Virus record (IMG/VR): IMGVR_UViG_3300020157_000013
Location: 1-24,839 of that record
DNA from: a virus
DNA length: 24,839 nt
Strand: one strand, 5' to 3'
Shown here: one piece after another, positions 4,446 through 5,570 of the stretch
Position numbering within the stretch: position 1 is the stretch's first letter
Layout of the letters: each line of letters starts with the position of its first letter
Translations under genes and position numbers: made by a program
Notes under the pieces: generated by a model
Told to the model about the DNA's origin: nothing
Database searches by the model: none
Seen by the model: only the letters and a program-made list of their open reading frames with translations

Positions 4446-5570
4446 ATGGCCTTTCAAACTCAAGTCAACGTACAACCCGCTCCCGCGGTCGCAGGCGATT
4501 TCGCCAGTGCGAACCCACGAGCTTCCGTTTTAACCACACCTGGCGGCTTAGTCGCAGGCGCAAGCGGCGTAACCGTTGGTCGCTTTGCCTGGGTCGATCC
4601 AGCCGCACCGACGATAGCCAATAACTTTGGCTCATCCACGTCCGGCGCACCAATTGGCTTCGTACACCGCGAACAGCAAGCGTTAATTACCACGTTCTTA
4701 GGCATGGCGACCCAAACCGTACCCACCGGCTTACCCGTTACCTTGCACCAAGCAGGCGATTTCTGGGCGGTTAATAACGGCGTTAGTGCAGCCGCCGTCA
4801 ATGACACCATTTACGCAAGTTATGCAGACGGCACGATTGCACCGAACACCATCCAAACCGCAGCGGCTTTCACGGCTTCCGTGGGCGCTTCCTGCACCGC
4901 CTCAATCGGTGCGGTTATCGCGTCAGCTACCGGCGCAGGCACGACTTGGACAGTCGTTACACTGACTTCCGGCGTATTGCATGTCGGTGACATTATTACC
5001 GGCGCCAGCGTCCCTGTAGGCACTTATATTGTGTCCTTAGGCACAGGCACAGGCGGCACAGGTACTTATATCACCAGTGCAGCCACTACCGGCACAACAG
5101 AGGCGGCTACCACTGTATCAACAGTTCTTGATGTAACAACCGTAGCAGGTGGATTTATTTATGCGGGCGATATTGTTGCCAATGCGACAACTGCCAATTC
5201 ACCAATTACCGCTGTTTTAACCGGCACCGTGGCAGGCGTAGGCACTTATAGACTAGGCGGGGCAGCACAGTATATGGCCTCCGGCGCGTCTAAACTGGTT
5301 ACGTCTTACCAGCTTCACGTCACCGCCGTAGCTTCCGGTACGCTACACGTAGGCGATCCGATTGCGACACTGGCTGTCACTTCCGGCTCGGTTATCGCAG
5401 CACTAGGAACCGGCGTGGGCGGCATAGGCAATTACACGCTTAACAAAACGTCAGCCTATACCGCGTCTGGATCAGCCGCGACCGTGTGCGGGGTGGCGAC
5501 AAAATGGAAAGCCATGACAGCCGGGGCCGTGGGTGAACTGATTAAAATTTCAACCTGGTTACTGGGGTAA
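4446..5570 (+). CDS. Capsid cement/decoration protein (Gp24-like) with inserted repeat modules
   Basis: 374 residues, roughly twice the usual length of Gp24-like structural cement proteins. Residues 1-135 ([19 protein letters not shown]... to the YASYADGTI region) and the last 25 ([19 protein letters not shown]) match the family, which binds the outside of DUF2184-type capsids. Between them, about residues 140-350, lie roughly three copies of a beta-rich, Gly/Thr-rich module. Each ends in a [10 protein letters not shown]-like turn whose Tyr falls at residues 208, 268 and 330, a period of about 61. The modules probably project from the capsid surface. The same module recurs in two other virion proteins of this window. 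It lies 6 bases after DUF2213 and 5 before the major capsid gene. Confidence 0.8.
   Translation: [374 protein letters not shown]

Follow-up and report, generated by a model that had tools for sequence, protein, structure and literature searches.

A putative mobile beta domain inserted in loops of outward-facing virion proteins of phages

Phage proteins are well known to be mosaic (PMC10684548), and Ig-like folds are an established case of surface domains that move from one virion protein to another. Ig-like domains of the Big_2, I-set and fn3 types are exchanged among unrelated virion proteins, of the capsid, sheath, tube and neck, and are thought to provide weak surface contacts (Fraser et al. 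2006, as cited in PMC9230969 and PMC10276861). Phage Douge offers the closest precedent that has been tested: the Ig-like domains on its capsid and tail tube bind cells and glycans of mycobacteria (PMC13033339). A survey of sheath proteins proposed that added domains serve adhesion or stabilisation (PMC9230969). For an Ig-like domain located in the neck, the R4C structure led its authors to argue that this position is poorly suited to adsorption (PMC10276861). Tandem small domains within one phage protein also occur in crAss-like phages as BACON repeats, an already defined domain family thought to bind carbohydrates (PMC6949934).

The window analysed here is an entire IMG/VR virus record of 24,839 bases. 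Its gene order and protein families fit a contractile-tailed phage of the XM1 or E217 kind, with a cement protein (PF23982), a neck terminator (PF23961), a collar protein of the E217 gp28 family, a sheath protein (DUF3383/phrog_205) and a J protein (PF04865). For the corresponding decorating, collar, gateway, sheath and baseplate proteins, the E217 structure provides the architecture (PMC10329688). An earlier note on this DNA had proposed that a single beta module recurs in three virion proteins, and its naming of these proteins was correct. All three are encoded on the + strand: the cement or minor head protein of 374 residues with three modules (4446..5570; PF23982 XM1_gp53, E 6.5e-25; phrog_2122, E 1e-43), the neck (tail) terminator or gateway protein with one (9004..9819; PF23961, E 1.5e-19; phrog_1876, E 1e-39) and the baseplate J-like protein with one (17799..19217; PF04865, E 1e-10; phrog_6, E 3e-54). 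It is the core of the cement protein, and not the module, that agrees in sequence and fold with the XM1/E217/Pam3 cement family, the core model resembling the cement chains of XM1, Pam3 and E217 (7kmx, 8hdt, 8frs) with Z of 13.4-14.8. Elsewhere in the window, a large fibre-like protein (21310-23796) has about four long repeats of the YIDI...LIIDF...WTFRNS...ILVTDGNNLSYATE type, and degenerate short repeats of the SETLGLS/SDSV type fill the N-terminal half of the protein encoded at 19829-21301, the C-terminal half of which is non-repetitive. A block of small genes lies on the - strand upstream of the structural genes (280-2907) and includes a protein that looks KilA-N-like by eye (1843-2493).

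Like the phage Ig-like domains, the module is a small beta domain exchanged between unrelated virion proteins, with 52 host groups and both occupied and empty sites. Unlike them, it has no Pfam Ig match, lies inside loops and is nearly uncharged. The likeness drawn in the earlier note thus holds for the behaviour, which is analogous, and not for the family, as 40 module copies compared with Pfam at E up to 10 hit no Ig family. Among the Foldseek matches of the J model, Ig chains appeared only at E>5 with TM 0.19-0.33; the absence of a match is no proof that the fold differs, but the predicted fold of the J copy resembles small beta-barrels and a phage capsid cement protein more closely than Ig chains. 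No Pfam or NCBIfam family covers the module. The profiles of PHROG 21413 and PHROG 38233 (orphan/tail fibre) include the module stretch and match most module-bearing proteins, but these are long whole-protein families and not a defined domain, and the stretch has no function assigned in them. A literature search with the motif or the PHROG numbers, with most subscription papers outside its scope, found no description. We therefore regard the module as a mobile virion surface domain of a family for which we found no description, separate from the Ig-like domains and from BACON.

Five related copies in the window

The most stringent check was a profile made from 90 modules that come solely from head-closure and adaptor proteins of other phages. 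This independent profile found all five copies in the window and had no further match there at E<1. All copies lie on the + strand. In the cement gene, copy 1 (4938..5090) scored 35.7 bits, copy 2 (5118..5279) 21.7 bits, the lowest of the five, and copy 3 (5310..5465) 44.2 bits; the copy in the neck gene (9343..9492, within a full insert at about 9319-9510) scored 33.1 bits and the single J copy (18528..18689, within a full insert at about 18500-18720) 61.4 bits. The three cement copies that had been proposed are thus present, but their spacing of 60 and 64 residues does not keep a strict period of 61. With the J copy as the sole query against the window's own record, cement copies 3 and 1 (E 7e-11 and 1e-10) and the neck copy (E 9e-4) were found. 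The neck copy lacks the GTGTGG turn, as had been described; relatives L085 and L247 keep the turn at the same neck site, so the window's copy is a true copy that is without it.

An iterated profile collected 241 modules from the first 80 loci and the window, a count in which the window copies entered twice, via L001-L004. A chance likeness, in which Gly/Thr-rich stretches merely resemble each other, might be suspected because the turn is low-complexity and filtered BLAST yields almost nothing. Yet the window copies, at 21.7-61.4 bits, stand far above the best of 16,000 composition-keeping shuffles (13.8 bits), a profile search of reversed and shuffled ORFs gave no match at E<1e-3, and the insertions are precise. 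We therefore dismiss an effect of Gly/Thr composition, whose probability we regard as negligible, and the sequence comparisons show that the five copies, three in the cement protein and one each in the neck terminator and J, are a true homologous family.

Insertion sites and host proteins

Relatives that lack the module keep both flanks of the insertion sites, so each window copy is an in-frame insertion into a loop. The tandem insert of three modules occupies one loop of the cement core (4875..5487, + strand, borders approximate). Three cement relatives (L217, L218, L224) are without it, and L218 retains both flanks, ...GATVAG on one side and ETKWYAMSAAAAGELFKISSYALG on the other. Across the cement family this loop carries 0, 1, 2 or 3 modules, behind which the protein preserves its final strand (ETKW...GELxKISSxxLG). 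Three adjacent cement paralogues of a single phage, in a locus of 5,000 bases (L250; G021:C1:1-5000), have one, two and three modules (267, 318 and 394 residues). The neck family has two module sites, and L237, L249, L242, L104 and L238 lack the stretch that bears the window's copy. Members of the sheath family carry one to three modules in one hairpin, which is empty in the window's own sheath protein.

The J family was sampled with 86 proteins from environmental contigs and bacterial genomes. No module was found in 26; 26 had one at site A only, which is the window's site, 17 at site B only, near the C-terminus, and 12 at both. A third site was used in 4 proteins, and 1 protein combined a fourth site with a copy in the region of site A. 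J proteins of cultured phages align on either side of the window's J copy with a gap in coverage between, and the N-terminal flank of an empty relative (L194) is 63% identical to the window's J. On a tree of the J core with the module columns left out, at least five changes of state are needed at site A and at least six at site B. In one J gene an in-frame stop lies just ahead of the module (L137:3706-3708), where the near-identical L135 and L136 are open; it could be either a nonsense mutation or a sequence error.

A profile search had been suggested for the range of host proteins, and it gave 607 modules in 386 distinct proteins from 336 loci, which sort into 52 groups that share no detected similarity apart from the module. 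Annotated groups include head closure Hc3, head-tail adaptor, J, sheath, cement, neck terminator, collar, tail and collar fibres, baseplate wedge and tail hub, together with a head decoration protein that has a GDSL domain and a single HK97 major capsid protein; several groups carry no annotation. Matches in bacterial genomes include secreted proteins (L092, L098, L121), namely a GH5 cellulase, a DUF6701 protein with a lectin-like domain (LamG) and a T9SS-sorted protein. Among predicted viral structures, the module fold was matched in an HK97 capsid protein and in a collagen-like protein of the giant virus Indivirus; the latter match (Indivirus ILV1, BFVD A0A1V0SCQ2) is at 47% identity. The proposal that the module is a mobile domain is thus strongly supported: sites are cleanly either occupied or empty, one protein can have several of them, the flanks are conserved, and 52 unrelated host backgrounds carry the module.

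Two module-bearing proteins are annotated 'portal protein' (L336, 3767-4735 of MW202520.1; L337, 3719-4702 of MW202674.1). The label is probably wrong, as size and gene order fit the head-tail adaptor group; both genes lie directly or one gene before a 'phage stabilization protein'. Up to five different proteins of a single phage hold the module inside their loops, and 31 of 35 long phage records contain one to eight copies, which is no estimate of frequency because the records were picked for a module or a related protein. A tblastn search with the raw module found no match in the phage and plasmid collections; masking of the Gly/Thr turn by the low-complexity filter is at least part of the reason. 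Consensus-like queries without the turn matched 6 of 50,697 phage records, three of them Sinorhizobium LM21 phage records, and nothing in the plasmid collection. The cultured Sinorhizobium phages phi3LM21 and phiLM21 have their copy in a tail fibre; a DNA-level search of E. coli with the module also found no match. The filter may explain part of this scarcity in comparison with the hundreds of environmental contigs.

We also asked which virion parts carry the module in 15 related phages. It was found in 17/17 cement, 13/15 J, 11/15 sheath, 6/15 neck, 2/15 collar and 4/12 fibre proteins. These six surface classes sum to 53/89, compared with 0/148 for ten other classes (portal, capsid, DUF4054, head-tail completion, tube, tape-measure, hub, 15829, spike and wedge); the Fisher test gives p 3e-29, on classes that were grouped once the data were known. 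Proteins of the 19829 and 19232 classes were excluded from both sides (0/12 and 0/1 in the 15 phages, 1/67 and 0/1 in all loci). The earlier idea of a coat on the particle gains indirect support from this confinement, in the 15 phages, to cement, sheath, neck gateway, collar, J and fibre classes, but not in full: the major capsid protein is exposed and had a module in 0 of 40 cases in the window's lineage, so exposure is not the sole rule.

Age and selection

Comparison of codon use and DNA identity between copies had been proposed as a way to see recombination. Third codon positions of the window copies are only 23-36% identical, the best DNA identity between different annotated host families is 78%, and dN/dS of modules among orthologues is 0.10-0.24, about that of the host core, with dS near saturation. 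Together these values rule out recent copying between the sampled annotated families. The modules are old and under purifying selection at the protein level as strong as that on their hosts. DNA-level marks of an insertion mechanism were not found; the copies are too old. An intein or a translational bypass element was set aside, because protein-level selection acts on the module as it does on the host.

That so many unrelated genes carry precise in-frame insertions would also be expected from a selfish DNA element of the Rickettsia palindromic element (RPE) type that is translated incidentally. Such an element, however, should be conserved as DNA, with near-identical copies in unrelated genes, which the module lacks. 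Its conservation sits in the protein, with saturated third positions (23-36%), at most 78% identity between annotated host families and dN/dS of about 0.1-0.24, and those hosts that can be named are virion and secreted proteins. We consider such an element very unlikely.

A tree of the modules has 60 changes of host family, compared with 110 (minimum 101) in shuffles, which suggests some vertical descent and many host switches. The tree is poorly resolved and has too few columns to date transfers, and the 60 changes should not be taken as the number of events. The window's J copy belongs to a supported set of six rows, and the rows closest to it are mainly cement, neck and sheath copies from other phages.

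Predicted fold and possible role

The module has about 65 residues with a conserved core of 55. The AlphaFold model of the J copy, the only copy modelled well, is all-beta (pLDDT 89.8, pTM 0.77). In the cement model the core is confident and the three modules (residues ~148-345) are poor (pLDDT ~27-76), so that this model is uninformative on the fold of copy 2. The best match of the J copy among solved structures is chain 1 of 8eci from Arthrobacter phage Bridgette (TM 0.72, Foldseek E 0.03; Z 7.1, 2.3 A over 66 residues, 23-24% identity). A dimeric capsid cement protein is mentioned for Bridgette (PMC13033339), and 8eci chain 1 is most likely this protein. It is a stand-alone chain of 124 residues, whereas the module is an insert, and a likeness at Foldseek E 0.03 does not establish kinship; a sequence search of the PDB with the module gave only rows at chance level. 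The next matches, at Z of about 5, are N-terminal barrels of F1-ATPase, a translation-factor barrel and several phage tail domains. Among 318 non-redundant copies, G12, G17, G37, G39, G42 and Y44 are more than 90% conserved, and the Gly-rich turn is kept across many lineages of phages and bacteria. Charged residues make up 2.9% of the 607 modules, compared with 12.5% of the host cores, and aromatic residues 3.8% compared with 9.7%; 141 of the 607 copies have no charged residue.

We propose that the module is a self-contained extracellular domain that would spread by in-frame insertion into loops of outward-facing virion proteins. Its two ends are probably close together, which would let it fit a loop and leave the host fold intact, and it would point outward from the virion. 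Weak contact of many copies with the bacterial envelope or matrix might then raise the chance of adsorption, as is thought for Ig-like domains. Taken as a whole, we find this explanation fairly probable. Its last part, the benefit through weak many-copy contact, is drawn from analogy, as is binding of glycans or mucus, which the earlier note had raised. So low a content of charged and aromatic residues is unusual for a sugar-binding domain and weakens the adhesion reading, a turn conserved over so many lineages argues against a host-specific receptor site, and the neck and collar are poor places for adsorption. Because low charge, few aromatic residues and the widely conserved turn weaken a specific receptor role, we hold to adhesion only tentatively, at slightly less than an even balance.

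Alternatively, the module could stabilise the particle, neighbouring copies touching each other or the shell and thereby cementing head, neck and tail so that they withstand pressure and stress from the environment. Cement proteins are the most frequent hosts (17/17), head-closure and adaptor proteins are common ones, the closest solved fold is the Bridgette capsid cement chain (Z 7.1 over 66 residues) and the turn is conserved and not variable. However, modules are also present in fibres and in secreted proteins of bacteria, and numbers of 0 to 3 copies at one site among relatives are hard to square with a fitted lattice contact; we think this role unlikely, though worth keeping in mind. A passive coat or spacer, for which we see a small chance, would either shield the particle from wrong sticking through an uncharged Thr/Ser/Gly surface or simply be a harmless, well-folding domain that is hard to remove. 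The scarcity of charge (2.9% compared with 12.5% in host cores, none at all in 141 of 607 copies), the many kinds of surface protein that carry the module and the repeated changes of state on the J tree agree with such a coat, but strong purifying selection (dN/dS about 0.1-0.24) and more conserved residues than a generic spacer needs do not.

The insertion points of the module show which loops can take up an added domain in nature, and the module accounts for many 'unknown' stretches in phage proteins. Natural pairs with and without it are available for testing the role of the coat. We see it as an evenly balanced question whether this unnamed, nearly uncharged beta domain is a general phage coat system, placed on head, neck, sheath and baseplate at once, separate from the Ig-like domains and missed since it is nearly absent from cultured phages; the same reading perhaps extends to some secreted bacterial proteins and to fibres of giant viruses. 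If a second, apparently unrelated family does in hundreds of environmental phage contigs what Ig-like domains do, then coating the virion with repeated small domains would be a general strategy.
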